This document shows positions 25,751-30,829 of a DNA stretch of 36,373 nucleotides, one piece after another (the first letter of the stretch is position 1; each line of letters opens with the position of its first letter). The notes under the pieces are model-generated. The model ran no database searches. It worked only from the letters and a program-made list of their open reading frames with translations, and had not been told where the DNA came from. Origin of the DNA: Neisseria sp. (GTDB lineage Bacteria; Pseudomonadota; Gammaproteobacteria; Burkholderiales; Neisseriaceae); NCBI GenBank assembly GCA_030538415.1, contig JAUNTY010000030.1, forward strand, positions 1 to 36,373, read 5' to 3'. A program made the translations under genes and the position numbers.

Positions 25751-25784
25751 AAAGATGCCGTCTGAACCTTCAGACGGCATCTTT
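25751..25784. terminator. AT-DUS hairpin; contains the lysR stop codon
   Basis: AAAGATGCCGTCTGAA, CC, TTCAGACGGCATCTTT: a perfect 16-base stem using the ATGCCGTCTGAA dialect. The lysR stop (TGA, complement of 25770-25772) lies inside it. The last residues DAV and the stop are thus encoded by the DUS itself. Confidence 0.85.
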
Positions 25785-26723
25785 AATTTCGGGTGTTGTT
25801 TGTCTGTGGTTTACTTTGGCGGCTTCAATCAAGTTTTCAACACCGGCGCAGGATTGTGCCAGCTCGGCATACAGCCATTCCCGAAAGGCGGTGATTTTGG
25901 GTGACTGTGCTTTAATCGCCGGGTAGAGCAGTCTGTGTGTGCTGATTTTCGCGCCCGAGTGAGGCAAGGGCAGCTTTAATTTGCCTTCCAGCAGCTCGCG
26001 TTCGGCCATCAGCGCGCTTTCCAACGCCACGCCTACGCCGTCGGTGGCGGCGTGAATGGCCATGAAAGTGCGGTCGAAACGCGGCCCCCGATCCAGTGCC
26101 AAGCCATTGATGCTGTGTTCGCGTGCCCAGTCGCGCCACTGGTATAGGTTGACTTCGGAATGAATCAAGACTTGTTGTACCAATGAAAAAGCTTCAGACG
26201 GCATCAGCTTGGGTGAGCACAAAATCTGAATATTCTCTTCGGGCAGATGCTCTACCACAATGCCTTTGTCGGGAAATACGTCGCCATAGCGGATGGCAAT
26301 ATCCGCCTCACCGGCATGAATGTTGGCGGTTTGCATGGAGGCGTTCAGGCGCACGTCGATGTCGTTGTATTGCGCCGAAAAGCGTGCCAGCCGCGGCATC
26401 AGCCATTGTGCGGCAAAACTCGGCGTGCTTTGGATGGTGAGGATGTCGCTTTTGCCGGTGCATTCGATGTCGCGCGTGGCCGTCTGAATCTGTTTGAAGG
26501 CATTGCTGATTTCCTGTGCGTAGCGCCGGCCGGCATCGGTTAGTTCGATGCGGCGGTTGCTGCGGTGAAACAGTTTCAAACCCAGCCGCTGTTCCAGTTG
26601 CCGGATTTGATGGCTGACGGCGGAGGGCGTGAGAAACAGCTCTTCGGCAGCCGCAATGAAAGAGCCGTTGCGCGCGGCGGCTTCAAACGCCTGCAAGGCT
26701 TTGAGCGGGGGGATTTTTCGCAT
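25770..26723 (-). CDS. LysR-type transcriptional regulator (GcvA-like)
   Basis: A 317-residue LTTR. The winged helix-turn-helix lies at residues 1-65 (PPLKALQAFEAAARNGSFIAAAEEL, then TPSAVSHQIRQLEQRLGLKLF), followed by a linker helix and a substrate-binding domain (SFAAQWLMPRLARF, EADIAIRYGD). It resembles the GcvA/AmpR branch. Divergent from the SDR-transketolase-MFS operon with overlapping promoters, it is the probable regulator of that operon. Two DUS cores lie inside the coding region (26193, 26479). The start has no clear Shine-Dalgarno sequence. Confidence 0.92.
   Translation of the reverse strand: MRKIPPLKALQAFEAAARNGSFIAAAEELFLTPSAVSHQIRQLEQRLGLKLFHRSNRRIELTDAGRRYAQEISNAFKQIQTATRDIECTGKSDILTIQSTPSFAAQWLMPRLARFSAQYNDIDVRLNASMQTANIHAGEADIAIRYGDVFPDKGIVVEHLPEENIQILCSPKLMPSEAFSLVQQVLIHSEVNLYQWRDWAREHSINGLALDRGPRFDRTFMAIHAATDGVGVALESALMAERELLEGKLKLPLPHSGAKISTHRLLYPAIKAQSPKITAFREWLYAELAQSCAGVENLIEAAKVNHRQTTPEIKDAV
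26193..26204 (-). repeat. AT-DUS inside lysR
   Basis: Minus-strand ATGCCGTCTGAA, in frame with the regulator and coding for MPSEA. Confidence 0.95.
26477..26488 (+). repeat. DUS (TG variant) inside lysR
   Basis: TGGCCGTCTGAA on the strand opposite to the gene. Confidence 0.9.
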
Positions 26724-26754
26724 ATTCGGGTGAATTTAATTCATCAATAAGCCA

Positions 26755-26783
26755 TTTTTATTCGTTTGTAGCCATGCGGTCAA
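26755..26783 (-). promoter_or_regulatory. Candidate lysR promoter
   Basis: On the minus strand TTGACC (complement of 26778-26783) and TAAAAA (complement of 26755-26760) are 17 bases apart. It overlaps the divergent SDR promoter, so both may respond to the same bound regulator. Confidence 0.5.
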
Positions 26784-26794
26784 GTTTTTATACT
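26766..26794 (+). promoter_or_regulatory. Candidate promoter of the SDR-transketolase operon
   Basis: TTGTAG (26766-26771), 17 bases, TATACT (26789-26794). It lies 43 bases before the SDR start and interleaves with the lysR promoter. Confidence 0.5.
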
Positions 26795-26836
26795 CGATTC
26801 ACTGTCCACAAACGAGAAATCAATCAGGAGAACATG

Positions 26837-27592
26837 ATGGCTTTATTGAATGGAAAATTTGCCGTGATTACCGGCGCGGCTTCTTTGCGCGGCATCGGCC
26901 GCAAAACCGCCGAGCGCTTTGCCGAAGAAGGCGCTCGGGTGGCAATTTTGGATTTGGACGAAGCCACCGCACAGGAAGCGGCGGCTTCGTTGCCGGGCGA
27001 AGGTCATATCGGGCTGGCTTGCAACGTGGCCGACCATGCTGCTTGCGCCGCAGCGGGGCAGGCGGTGCTGGCCGCATTCGGGCGGGTGGATATTCTGGTG
27101 AACAACGCCGGAATTACCCAGCCGCTGAAGCTGATGGACATCACGCCCGACAACTACACCGCCGTCACCGATGTTTCCCTGCGCGGCACGCTGAATATGA
27201 GCCAGGCGCTGGTGCCTGCCATGCGCGCCAATGGCGGCGGCAGCATTATCTGCCTCTCGTCGGTGTCGGCGCAGCGTGGCGGCGGCATTTTCGGCGGCCC
27301 GCATTATTCCGCCGCCAAAGCGGGGGTGTTGGGCTTGGCCAAGGCGATGGCGCGCGAGTTGGGCAACGACAATATCCGCGTCAACAGCATCACCCCGGGC
27401 TTGATTCAAACCGACATCACCCAAGGCAAGCTCAGCGATGAAATGCGCACCGATATTCTGAAAGGCATCCCGCTCAACCGCCTCGGCGATGCGGTTGACG
27501 TGGCCAATGCCTGCGTGTTTCTCGGCAGCGGTTTGTCGTCTTATCTGACCGGCATCACGCTGGATGTCAACGGCGGCATGCTGATTCACTAA
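26837..27592 (+). CDS. Short-chain dehydrogenase/reductase (SDR)
   Basis: A 251-residue classical SDR. The cofactor-binding TGAASLRGIGR lies near residues 14-24, DILVNNAGI near 85-93, and the catalytic Ser (CLSSVSA), Tyr and Lys (HYSAAKAG) are present, with the VNSITPGLIQTD segment after them. Acidic residues after the second strand (LDLDE) suggest NAD preference. The likely role is oxidation of a hydroxyl group of an imported polyol or sugar acid. Tandem ATGs occur at 26834 and 26837; the second has better spacing (6 bases) from AGGAG. It is the first gene of the split-transketolase operon. Confidence 0.92.
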   Translation: MALLNGKFAVITGAASLRGIGRKTAERFAEEGARVAILDLDEATAQEAAASLPGEGHIGLACNVADHAACAAAGQAVLAAFGRVDILVNNAGITQPLKLMDITPDNYTAVTDVSLRGTLNMSQALVPAMRANGGGSIICLSSVSAQRGGGIFGGPHYSAAKAGVLGLAKAMARELGNDNIRVNSITPGLIQTDITQGKLSDEMRTDILKGIPLNRLGDAVDVANACVFLGSGLSSYLTGITLDVNGGMLIH

Positions 27593-27605
27593 ACGGAGCG
27601 CAATC

Positions 27606-28433
27606 ATGACCACTTTACGCGAACACGCCCGCAACATCCGCCGTTATGCGGTGAAAATGGGCGAAGTACAGGGGCAGGGCTATGTCGGCCAGGCACTCGG
27701 TTATGCCGATGTGTTGGCGGTGGCTTACTGCCATGCGATGAAATTCAATTCCGCCGACCCGCAATGGCCGGAGCGCGACTGGTTTCTGCTGTCGCACGGC
27801 CATTACGCCATTGCCCATTACGCCGCGCTGATGGAAGCAGGCATTCTCAACCCCGCCGATATTGAAATATATGGCAGCGACGACAGCCATTTGCCGATGT
27901 CGGGCATGGCTACTTACACACCGGGCATGGAAATTTCCGGCGGCTCGTTGGGGCAGGGGTTGCCGATAGGTGTCGGCATTGCGCTGGGTTTGAAGCAGCA
28001 GGGCAAAAGCAGCTTTGTGTATAACTCCATGTCCGACGGCGAATTGGATGAAGGCTCAACTTGGGAAGCGGCGATGTCGGCCGCCCACCACCAGCTCGAC
28101 AACCTGATTTGCATCGTCGACATCAACCGTCAGCAGGCCGACGGCACGTCCACCGATATTCTCAATTTCGAGCCTTTGGCCGACAAGTGGGCGGCATTCG
28201 GCTGGCATGTACAACGGGTAAACGGTAACGACATCGATGCGGTTCAGACGGCCTTCGATAATGCCCGTGCGCTGCCAGAGCCGCGCCCGCGCGTGATTCT
28301 GTGCGATACCCTGATGGGCAAGGGCGTGCCGTTTTTAGAGCAGCGCGAGAAAAACCACTTTATCCGCGTGGATGCGCACGAATGGGCGCAAGCATTGGCC
28401 GTTCTTGAACAAAGCGAAGGAGCAGAAGCATGA
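27606..28433 (+). CDS. Transketolase, N-terminal (TPP-binding) subunit
   Basis: A 275-residue subunit equivalent to the N-terminal half of transketolase. SHGHYAIAHYAAL (63-75), ISGGSLGQGLPIGVGIALGL (110-129) and the TPP/Mg site SDGELDEGSTWEAA with N174 (DIN) are visible. The usual GDGE is SDGE here (Ser143). Split transketolases occur in specialised pathways, for example apulose-4-phosphate or sulfo-sugar catabolism. A DUS core (28243) is embedded. It overlaps the C-terminal subunit gene by four bases (ATGA), so the subunits are made in equal amounts. Confidence 0.93.
   Translation: MTTLREHARNIRRYAVKMGEVQGQGYVGQALGYADVLAVAYCHAMKFNSADPQWPERDWFLLSHGHYAIAHYAALMEAGILNPADIEIYGSDDSHLPMSGMATYTPGMEISGGSLGQGLPIGVGIALGLKQQGKSSFVYNSMSDGELDEGSTWEAAMSAAHHQLDNLICIVDINRQQADGTSTDILNFEPLADKWAAFGWHVQRVNGNDIDAVQTAFDNARALPEPRPRVILCDTLMGKGVPFLEQREKNHFIRVDAHEWAQALAVLEQSEGAEA
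28243..28254 (-). repeat. AG-DUS inside the transketolase N-subunit gene
   Basis: Minus-strand AGGCCGTCTGAA, coding for VQTAF on the plus strand. Confidence 0.95.
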
Positions 28434-29422
28434 ATACCGCTGCCAAACCCCGTCTCACCACTTCCGCCATGATTGCCTCGATTGCCGAGGCGGGGCAAAA
28501 AACCGTGGCCGCCCCCTTCGGGCGCGCCCTTAACCGCATTGCCGCCGAACGGCCGGATATCGTCGGTTTGAGCGCCGATCTGGCCAAATACACCGATATC
28601 CATATTTTCCGCGATGCCTATCCCGACCGCTTTTACCAAATGGGCATGGCCGAGCAACTGCTGTTGGCGGCAGCGGGCGGCATGGCCAAAACCGGCCTTA
28701 CCCCGTTTGTCACCAGCTATGCAGTATTCGCCACCCGCCGCGCCTTTGATTTTATCCATCAGGTGATTGCCGAAGAAAACCTGAACGTGAAAATCTGCGC
28801 CGCCCTGCCGGGGCTGACCACCGGCTATGGCCCCAGCCATCAGGCTTGCGAGGATTTGGCCTTAATGCGCAGCATTCCCAATATGACGGTCATCGACCCG
28901 TGTGACGCGCTGGAAATCGAGCAGGCCACTGAAGCCATTGCCCAATACCAAGGGCCGGTTTACATGCGGCTGCTGCGCGGCCAAGTGCCGTTGGTGCTGG
29001 ACGAATACGATTACCGCTTTGAATTGGGTAAGGCCAAGCTGCTGCGTGACGGCAAAGATGTGCTGTTTGTCAGCACCGGCCTGATGACCATGCGCACGCT
29101 GGAAGCGGCCAAACAATTGGCCGCAGACAATATCGATGCCGCCGTCTTGCATGTGCCCACCATCAAGCCGTTGGACGAAGAAACCATCGTGCGCGAAGCG
29201 GGTAAAGGCCGTTTGCTGGTGTGTGCCGAAAACCATACCTTGATCGGCGGTTTGGGTGAGGCTGTGGCGACTTTGTTGATGGACAAACAAGTCGCCACGC
29301 CGTTCAAGCGCATCGCGCTACCCGATGCCTTTCTGGATGCGGGTGCTCTGCCGACCCTGCATGACCGCTACGGCATTTCCACCCAAGCGGTGGTGTCGCA
29401 AGTAAAACAATGGCTGGCATAA
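28430..29422 (+). CDS. Transketolase, C-terminal subunit
   Basis: A 330-residue partner of the preceding gene, carrying the pyrimidine-binding and C-terminal domains. The catalytic glutamate lies in QMGMAEQLLLAAAGGMA (E75). TTGYGPSHQACEDLALMRSIPNM (130-152) is the family signature, and the transketolase C domain follows (about 190-320). Substrate specificity is not readable. It is followed by a DUS pair and then the MFS gene in the same direction. Confidence 0.93.
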   Translation: MNTAAKPRLTTSAMIASIAEAGQKTVAAPFGRALNRIAAERPDIVGLSADLAKYTDIHIFRDAYPDRFYQMGMAEQLLLAAAGGMAKTGLTPFVTSYAVFATRRAFDFIHQVIAEENLNVKICAALPGLTTGYGPSHQACEDLALMRSIPNMTVIDPCDALEIEQATEAIAQYQGPVYMRLLRGQVPLVLDEYDYRFELGKAKLLRDGKDVLFVSTGLMTMRTLEAAKQLAADNIDAAVLHVPTIKPLDEETIVREAGKGRLLVCAENHTLIGGLGEAVATLLMDKQVATPFKRIALPDAFLDAGALPTLHDRYGISTQAVVSQVKQWLA

Positions 29423-29434
29423 GCCGTGTTGCCA

Positions 29435-29471
29435 TTCAGACGGCCTTTTTTCCATAAACAGGCCGTCTGAA
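29435..29471 (+). repeat. Inverted AG-DUS pair between transketolase and transporter
   Basis: TTCAGACGGCCT (29435-29446) and AGGCCGTCTGAA (29460-29471) form a 12-base stem with a 13-base loop. The arms are oriented tail-to-tail, unlike the other pairs here. It may reduce read-through into the transporter gene. Confidence 0.7.
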
Positions 29472-29530
29472 ACCAGTCATCGCAAAGCAGGCTTCGTCTT
29501 GCAAAAAAAATCATAATGAGGAGAAATTCA

Positions 29531-30829
29531 ATGACTGCAACAACCTTGGCGCTGGAAAACAGCGTGGTGCGTAAAGTTACCTGGCGGCTGATACCGTTTT
29601 TGTTTATCTGTTTTTTTATCGCCATTCTCGACCGCGTCAACATCAGTTTCGCCGCGCTGCAAATGAATCAGGATTTGCAGTTTTCCGATACCGTATTCGG
29701 CCTCGGCGCGGGTATGTTTTTTCTTGGTTATTTTCTGTTGGAAGTGCTGGGCAGCGCCATGATGGCCAAAGTAGGCGCGCGCAAATGGATTTGCCGCATC
29801 ATGGTGAGCTGGGGCTTGCTGGCGATTTTGATGGCGTTTATCCAAACCCCGTGGCAATTTTATACCGTGCGCTTTTTGCTCGGTGTGGCCGAAGCCAGTT
29901 TTTATCCCTGCATGGTGCATTATCTGAGCGGTTTTTACCAAACCAAGCATCACGCCAAAGCGATTGCCGCCTTTATGCTGGCGATTCCCGGTGCCAATGC
30001 CTTGGGCGCGCCTTTGTCCACTTTTTTGCTCGGCATCGAAGGCTGGGGGCTGGCAGGCTGGCAATGGATGTTTATTCTGGAAGCTCTGCCGGCGGTGGTG
30101 CTCGGCATCATGGCGTTTTTCTATCTTGACGACCGCATTGCCGATGCCAAATGGTTGAATAGCGATGAAAAAAACTGGCTGCTGCAAACGCTGGATAAGG
30201 AGCAGCAAGCCAAGCAGGCAGTGAAACACTATACTTTCTTCCAGGCTTTAAAAGACAAATACGTGTTGCTGCTGTCGGCAGGCTACCTGTTTTGGATGAT
30301 GGGCTATTACGGCATCAATATGTTTTTGCCCACCATCTCGCGCAGCATGGTCAACGCCACATCATTGAGCCTGCAAAACCTCGGCTGGCTGGTGGGCGGC
30401 ATGTATTTTGTGGCCATGCTGGCGATGTTGTGGGTGGGCGGCCATTCCGACAAAAAGCGCGAACGCCGCTGGCACGTGGCCGCCTGCCTGACCTTGAGCG
30501 CCGTTGCGCTGGTTGCCGCAGCTTATGTGTCTGCCATGAATGTTTCACTGGCGTTTGCCTTGTTGATGGTGGCCTTGTGCGGCGCATTTGGTGCATTCTC
30601 GCCGTTTTGGGCGATTCCGCCCTCGTTCCTCACCGGTGCGGCAGCCGGCGGCGCCATTGCCATGATCAACAGCATCGGCAACCTCGGCGGCTTTCTCGGC
30701 CCTTATGTGGTGGGCTACCTGCGCGATTTGACCGGCTCGTTTAATGTGGCGATTACTTTTTTGGGCGGCAGCATGATTCTGAGTGCGGTGGTGATTTTGT
30801 TGAGTACCCGCAGGCTGAAGAGCTTCTAG
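29531..30829 (+). CDS. MFS transporter, anion:cation symporter (ACS) type
   Basis: A 432-residue protein with 12 predicted spans. The N-terminal AILDRVNISFAALQMNQDL matches the signature of the ACS family (phthalate, tartrate, hexuronate, glucarate and related carboxylates). GVAEASFYPCMVHYLSGFY and the central cytosolic loop (SDEKNWLLQTLDKEQQAKQ) fit. It probably imports the operon's substrate, which favours an organic anion. GAGGAG precedes ATG 29531; a start five codons earlier is possible but less well placed. It is the last gene of the operon. Confidence 0.9.
   Translation: MTATTLALENSVVRKVTWRLIPFLFICFFIAILDRVNISFAALQMNQDLQFSDTVFGLGAGMFFLGYFLLEVLGSAMMAKVGARKWICRIMVSWGLLAILMAFIQTPWQFYTVRFLLGVAEASFYPCMVHYLSGFYQTKHHAKAIAAFMLAIPGANALGAPLSTFLLGIEGWGLAGWQWMFILEALPAVVLGIMAFFYLDDRIADAKWLNSDEKNWLLQTLDKEQQAKQAVKHYTFFQALKDKYVLLLSAGYLFWMMGYYGINMFLPTISRSMVNATSLSLQNLGWLVGGMYFVAMLAMLWVGGHSDKKRERRWHVAACLTLSAVALVAAAYVSAMNVSLAFALLMVALCGAFGAFSPFWAIPPSFLTGAAAGGAIAMINSIGNLGGFLGPYVVGYLRDLTGSFNVAITFLGGSMILSAVVILLSTRRLKSF

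Follow-up and report, generated by a model that had tools for sequence, protein, structure and literature searches.

What does a transketolase split into two subunits do beside a dehydrogenase and an organic-anion transporter, with no kinase gene directly adjoining it? The question is raised by positions 25770-30829 of the window, by which we mean the whole 36,373-nucleotide stretch analysed here, a contig (JAUNTY010000030.1) of a 2.84-Mb draft Neisseria sp. genome rich in GCCGTCTGAA, which we take to be the Neisseria DNA uptake sequence (DUS). The locus has a LysR-type regulator gene on the minus strand and, divergent from it, four plus-strand genes for a short-chain dehydrogenase/reductase (SDR), the N and C subunits of the transketolase (tktN and tktC) and a major facilitator superfamily (MFS) transporter. 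An earlier note on this DNA had described this arrangement, with four-base coupling of tktN and tktC, as a self-contained unit that takes up an organic anion, oxidises it and transfers a C2 unit, with no kinase. All five open reading frames (ORFs) proved intact where that note had placed them, tktN and tktC overlap by 4 nt (ATGA), and conserved neighbourhoods in other genomes support the idea of a unit. We give about an even chance to the reading that the module catabolises a tetronate (such as erythronate or threonate) or a closely related 2-hydroxy acid of four or five carbons through import, oxidation by the SDR and kinase-free cleavage by the split transketolase. If true, this would assign a function to a transketolase pair present in 24/398 Pseudomonadota genomes and annotated on plasmids as just 'transketolase', would provide a route for C4 acids such as L-threonate that needs no kinase, and would reveal how the phosphate site of a transketolase can disappear. 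Plants form L-threonate from ascorbate, according to the accessible part of PMC12540250.

We compared active-site columns with Escherichia coli TktA in a table of 90 rows (79 loci, the window and 10 named plasmid loci, after removal of two loci that lacked an N subunit; one row is gapped in N). The thiamine diphosphate (ThDP) and metal residues D155, E160 and N185 of the N subunit and the catalytic E411 of the C subunit were retained in 90/90, as expected of a split two-subunit transketolase, together with H473 and R520. The phosphate ligands of canonical transketolases are R358, S385, H461 and R520, and three of these four are lost in the clade, R520 alone being kept. The S385 column holds tyrosine and the H461 column leucine in 90/90, the D469 site is deleted in every row, and no arginine occupies the R358 position in any of the 88 readable rows (A in 43, P in 22, S in 17 and N in 2, with L, V and T also present). 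Automatic alignment gapped R358 in all split transketolases, and this position was instead read from the motif xAPFG, with P assigned by eye in L091 and L069 and L086 unreadable. In the N subunit, the H26 column is tyrosine and the H100 column serine in 89 rows each. The window tktC carries E75 as the catalytic residue, A27, Y54, L126 and the loop deletion at the phosphate and acceptor sites, and a retained R183. We read this pattern as a probable loss of the sugar-phosphate clamp and a shortening of the pocket, with one arginine left that could hold a carboxylate; S385Y, H461L and the loss of D469 with R520 kept would fit a short carboxylate-ended donor. Because three of the four phosphate ligands are gone, the aldose-phosphate acceptor suggested in the earlier note is doubtful, and the substitutions at S385 and H461 (90/90) and R358 (88/88 readable) speak against it; with the canonical phosphate site lost, the acceptor probably either carries no phosphate or is bound in some novel manner.

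The clade defined by these changes is monophyletic (FastTree support 0.901), and its sister clade (0.999) consists of the split transketolases of Ponticoccus (L106) and Ensifer (L113); the closest solved relatives are 6yak for tktN and 6yaj for tktC. Of 398 Pseudomonadota genomes (an even draw plus the window genome), 24 carry a member; this count includes the window genome and two genomes (G329 and G385) whose matches are 54-57% identical and whose SDRs beside the transketolase are just 33-37% identical. The search for the same neighbourhood that the earlier note had advised thus recovered the LysR-SDR-split-transketolase core across Pseudomonadota, with either an MFS or a tripartite ATP-independent periplasmic (TRAP) transporter. 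The genome contigs contain at least 500 tktC relatives (E <= 1e-3), and 386 plasmid records match at E <= 1e-30, 189 of them at 60-80% identity. In 60 rows sampled across 440 plasmid records, identity drops from 62% to 42%, with only one short fragment between or above; the two whole-genome matches at 54 and 57% fall inside this gap, which blurs the clade boundary somewhat. Carriers include legume symbionts and plant-associated bacteria, and pNGR234a of Sinorhizobium fredii has a copy whose annotation goes no further than SDR, transketolase and TRAP genes. In two Klebsiella plasmid records (L014 and L015) the module lies between CecR/HlyD and RhlE/DinG, which resembles a chromosomal stretch on plasmid records. 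Within the window's own genus tktN is patchy (2/36 genomes including the window's, E <= 1e-30). The other genome, G012, carries the complete module in the same position with 82-93% protein identity, and this, together with conservation of the core across the phylum, makes the module more than a chance assembly. In G005 of the same genus, a 505-aa ORF (L124:1995-3512) fills the CYTH-hemL interval in which the window carries the module.

Gene neighbourhoods were compared across 87 loci, comprising 80 genome loci and 7 plasmid loci (L015 was omitted as a near-duplicate of L014). The genome loci are the best-matching 80 of at least 500 confirmed, so the sample is biased toward close relatives. Genes were called with a custom codon-usage score and operon runs joined over gaps of at most 400 bases; the tallies are lower bounds because many contigs end inside the operon. 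An SDR gene was present in 65/87 runs, LysR in or beside 62, an LtnD-like beta-hydroxyacid dehydrogenase (bHAD) in 30, and an SDR and/or bHAD in 78. The bHAD occurred without an SDR in 13 runs, and the six MFSb-type runs all had a bHAD and none an SDR. We examined another 20 loci, drawn from 19 of the 24 carriers; 19 of these loci contained an SDR and the remaining one a bHAD. The link between SDR and transketolase, whose failure in conserved neighbourhoods would have undone the earlier proposal, is therefore upheld. The transporter fared differently: TRAP genes appeared in 50/87 runs and MFS genes in 18/87 (excluding the MFS of L014 and L039), so that a transporter recurs but the expected MFS linkage half fails, TRAP genes replacing it in most relatives. 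The transporter is the replaceable part of the module. Rarer partners among the 87 runs were a full-length transketolase (12), 2-hydroxyacid dehydrogenase (8), glycerate 2-kinase (4), a TIM-barrel protein (3) and DAK (2). The full-length transketolase near the module (L047:11974-14010 and 16 relatives) is unusual too, with I at R358, P at S385 and N at D469 in 17/17. TIM-barrel, DAK and RpiB genes lie in or adjoin the split-transketolase operon in L021, L027 and L170, an arrangement that recalls an erythrulose to erythrose-phosphate route; the RpiB proteins of L080 and L170 score under the DerI cut-off.

The wider genomic context points to C4 sugar acids (tetronates) as the best candidates, and so narrows the broader hydroxy acid or polyol of the earlier note, of which acid import and oxidation are retained. 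In an Alcaligenaceae locus (L055), one run carries DenD-OtnK-OtnC-OtnI directly ahead of tktN-tktC, followed by an LtnD-like bHAD. The four otn genes exceed their NCBIfam cut-offs (DenD 499.7 > 325, OtnK 608.9 > 350, OtnC 327 > 250, OtnI 408 > 325 bits), whereas the bHAD falls under its own. G435 has the module and, about 8 kb on, LtnD-OtnK-OtnC-OtnI-DenD, all over cut-off. OtnK scored over cut-off in 21/24 genomes with the split transketolase versus 59/374 others (odds ratio (OR) 37), and in 20/22 carriers when G329 and G385 were left out. The control genes gudD (glucarate dehydratase, counted at E <= 1e-120 rather than at the model cut-off) and Gcl were found in 13/24 versus 43/374 (OR 9) and 9/24 versus 43/374 (OR 4.6), respectively, and among gudD-negative genomes OtnK was present in 9/11 carriers versus 31/331 others. 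The L-threonate dehydrogenase model NF043037 was the best match of the bHAD in 8/8 tested.

The TRAP binding proteins of the module loci are of two types (28 and 22 loci). Two type-A proteins match RPB_2686 (4oan), presumably an acetolactate binder, at ~1e-121. By sequence, a type-B protein is nearest to 4p47, followed by DctPAm, Bpro_0088, Bpro_1871 and Veis_3954, and a predicted type-B model (predicted local distance difference test (pLDDT) 77.9) is nearest to the same group. We take Bpro_0088, Bpro_1871 and Veis_3954 to be D-erythronate binders. The type-A model was set aside as too poor (pLDDT 52.5). TRAP ligands include 2-acetolactate and pantoate/D-erythronate, according to the accessible part of a review (PMC5812351).

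Several observations weigh against a tetronate as the substrate. The otn operon itself lies within only 1/87 loci, and all eight tested bHADs score under the threonate-dehydrogenase cut-off. Among gudD-positive genomes, OtnK was present in 12/13 carriers and in 28/43 others. Since the gudD control also associates with the split transketolase, lifestyle accounts for part of the OtnK signal; the co-occurrence, counted without phylogenetic correction, is partly one of lifestyle and phylogeny. A search of the window genome for OtnK gave no match, and the tetronate link therefore rests on relatives only. The same genome has no Gcl over cut-off. It has a malate synthase, which could use glyoxylate, but we rejected this enzyme as a specific partner because 15/36 genomes of the genus have one. 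The assignment of each ligand to its binding protein is presumed, the accessible part of PMC5812351 confirming the ligands and not the assignment, and the glycerate kinase, 2-hydroxyacid dehydrogenase and DAK/RpiB/TIM partners are unexplained by glyoxylate release alone. The window genome also has a glycerate kinase, and the contig of that gene carries a partial glucarate-dehydratase-like frame (283/441 positions).

From the gene content and its conservation, the altered active-site columns, the operator motif, and the linkage and co-occurrence with tetronate genes in relatives, we infer a substrate and its stereochemistry, a position of oxidation, products, an acceptor and a mode of regulation. 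The MFS transporter would import a C4 acid, and the SDR would oxidise its 3-hydroxyl group to give a 3-oxo acid (3-oxo-tetronate) with a ketol at its HOCH2-CO- end. The split transketolase would then cut the C2-C3 bond of this unphosphorylated acid, releasing glyoxylate, or pyruvate if C2 bears a methyl group, and leaving an enzyme-bound C2 unit to be passed to an acceptor, while LysR would control the operon via TGAATTnAATTCA. That G435 combines a complete otn set with the module suggests that the module is suited to another stereoisomer or derivative. The H26-to-Y exchange in E. coli transketolase reportedly reverses C3 stereoselectivity, and the natural Y26 would, on that basis, be in line with a different stereoisomer. 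A tentative extension, possible but improbable in our view, is that the clade left sugar phosphates altogether: with its natural, fixed Y26, it would act on a 2S-series 3-oxo-tetronate (from D-threonate or L-erythronate) and a free aldehyde such as glycolaldehyde to yield erythrulose and glyoxylate, and DAK-RpiB-TIM (L021, L027, G435) would carry erythrulose to erythrose 4-phosphate. The OtnK route may not take D-threonate or L-erythronate.

A longer substrate might account for some of the rarer partners. On a pentonate route, which we find doubtful, the SDR would oxidise C4 and the transketolase remove C4-C5 to leave tartronate semialdehyde, with the bHAD as its reductase and glycerate kinase as the last step. 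The bHAD does match TIGR01505 (tartronate semialdehyde reductase) in 8/8, at 140-224 bits and thus under the 340.75 cut-off, yet in all eight the L-threonate dehydrogenase model matches better. Glycerate 2-kinase (4/87) and 2-hydroxyacid dehydrogenase (8/87) occur in operon runs, and DctPAm, which binds sugar acids, is among the proteins nearest to type B; against this, the bHAD lacks an SDR beside it in 13/87 runs and so is not simply a downstream step, the otn context points elsewhere, and Y385 and L461 would leave less space for a C5 donor. We also weighed and set aside a hexonate route, which would run by way of a 5-keto acid to tartaric semialdehyde; no search for supporting genes was made.

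Two other departures from the tetronate reading seem unlikely to us, and to the same degree. Were the substrate an isoprenoid-derived 2-C-methyl tetronate, the transketolase would release pyruvate instead of glyoxylate. The type-A matches to RPB_2686 (~1e-121), which reportedly has density modelled as 2-acetolactate, a compound of the same branched skeleton, favour such a branched acid, but that ligand assignment is presumed, and the type-B binders resemble proteins presumed to bind straight-chain acids. That 2-acetolactate is among the TRAP ligands is stated in the accessible part of PMC5812351. In the other departure, the SDR or bHAD would convert glycerate to hydroxypyruvate, which the transketolase would decarboxylate as an irreversible C2 donor. 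The 2-hydroxyacid dehydrogenase and glycerate kinase neighbours are compatible with this, and hydroxypyruvate is a classic transketolase donor; however, a glycerate kinase is present in the window genome in any case, so that no such path is needed there, and the route gives no reason for the rewired pocket. An orthodox sugar-phosphate transketolase, similar to AptAB or to that of the pentose phosphate pathway and with a role for the SDR at some other step, is very unlikely. The conserved catalytic and ThDP residues and R520 would suit it, but no kinase lies directly beside the window pair, all 90 rows have other residues at S385 and H461 and lack the D469 site, and the R358 position has no arginine in 88/88 readable rows, whereas the split transketolases of Enterococcus and Fusobacterium retain R358, H461 and D469.

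Regulation of the module was approached through the LysR gene (25770-26723, minus strand; Pfam HTH_1 and LysR_substrate), which belongs to the GcvA subfamily and exceeds the cut-off of NCBIfam NF008352 'GcvA' (306 > 288 bits). Between it and the SDR gene lies a candidate LysR operator at 26731-26743, the perfect 6+6 dyad TGAATTTAATTCA of the T-N11-A type, identical in G012. The motif TGAA-N5-TTCA was found in 37/58 LysR-operon intergenic regions, versus 0.3 expected from the same loci. It stands at 3234 in L055, upstream of DenD in the otn-transketolase operon, and beside the separate full-length transketolase in 3 loci, which suggests, on the motif alone, that the otn genes and the second transketolase are tied to the same regulator; the otn stretch of G435 (L172) has no operator motif. 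The window contains 13 equally good 13-mer dyads, and the dyad alone is thus not special. A loose operator pattern matched 7 times in the window versus 0.95 expected, some matches overlapping uptake sequences, and was rejected as a discriminator there; we relied solely on the site at 26731, whose position is conserved. Six of 18 module loci listed match loosely at or close to the place where the operator would be expected, and L152, L163, L168, L170, L171, L103, L110, L021 and L027 have no operator match at all.

In the window, the SDR gene (26834-27592, plus strand; 252 aa, Pfam adh_short_C2) more likely starts at 26834, with AGGAG upstream, than at 26774. Its product, predicted to oxidise the imported hydroxy acid, shares up to 75% identity with the SDRs in other modules, and its closest solved relatives are 7krk and 7krm. 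The accessible part of a paper on Acinetobacter baumannii FabG (PMC8007833) names 6NRP and neither of these two, and so gives no substrate clue. The ThDP-binding tktN (27606-28433, plus strand; Pfam Transketolase_N) has Y26 and S99 at the positions of E. coli H26 and H100, and tktC (28430-29422, plus strand; Pfam Transket_pyr and Transketolase_C) comprises the pyrimidine and C-terminal domains. An inverted pair of DUS, terminator-like, lies at 29435-29471 between tktC and the MFS gene; since it could form a hairpin, co-transcription of the MFS gene with tktC is uncertain. This gene for a putative ACS-type organic-anion transporter (29531-30829, plus strand; Pfam MFS_1) sits in an ORF that opens at 29516, a start at 29531 being more likely. 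Its best NCBIfam match is the D-galactonate transporter TIGR00893 (2A0114; 284.9 bits, under the 395 cut-off), and its identity to 13 MFS genes of other modules reaches 44.75%. The scanned neighbours of the transketolase pair are the SDR, LysR, MFS, hemL, CYTH and an unassigned 127-aa protein, with no kinase directly adjoining.

We searched the literature, mostly without subscription journals, and among the papers listed found no characterised pathway with all four genes and no paper on this module; the accessible part of PMC3234253 concerns CbbT isoforms and says nothing on split transketolases. AptAB is reportedly a two-subunit transketolase of a catabolic operon with a kinase-dependent, phosphorylated donor (apulose-4-phosphate) and a directly adjoining kinase gene. 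The module shares the two-subunit form but has no adjoining kinase among its scanned neighbours, and the split transketolases linked to FGGY kinases in L107 and L108, AptAB-like by context only, keep H26, H100 and S385, unlike the module clade. On an Apilactobacillus plasmid (L104:4127-5855), aptA and aptB lie among ligase, methyltransferase and aminotransferase genes, a setting more biosynthesis-like than apiose use. The Carboxydothermus split transketolase (6yaj/6yak) is the closest solved structure for both subunits, yet it keeps residues equivalent to R358 and H461 as well as the D469 loop. The sister proteins of Ponticoccus and Ensifer share L461 and the D469-site deletion with the module clade, and that of Ponticoccus also Y26, but both differ in having I100 and in keeping S385 and R358. 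The Ponticoccus plasmid cluster (L106:746-7132) comprises an MtnA-like isomerase, a molybdopterin oxidoreductase, the split transketolase and a RuBisCO-like protein.

SqwGH cleaves unphosphorylated ketoses, including the C4 compound 4-deoxy-4-sulfoerythrulose, according to the accessible part of PMC9594981, and by this description it is likened to the proposed module transketolase, from which it differs in its sulfo-sugar substrate and, as given there, its glyceraldehyde 3-phosphate acceptor. SqvD, SqwI and SqwF were absent among the scanned window neighbours; the genome was not searched for them. The known L-threonate path proceeds through 3-oxo-L-threonate, which is phosphorylated and then decarboxylated to dihydroxyacetone phosphate (accessible part of PMC12540250). 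The Otn pathway (LtnD-OtnI-OtnK-OtnC / DenD), whose genes stand inside the module operon in L055 and near the module in G435, resembles the proposed route in handling C4 sugar acids with a dehydrogenase acting first to form a 3-oxo acid; where it has a kinase and a decarboxylase, the module has a split transketolase and an SDR instead.

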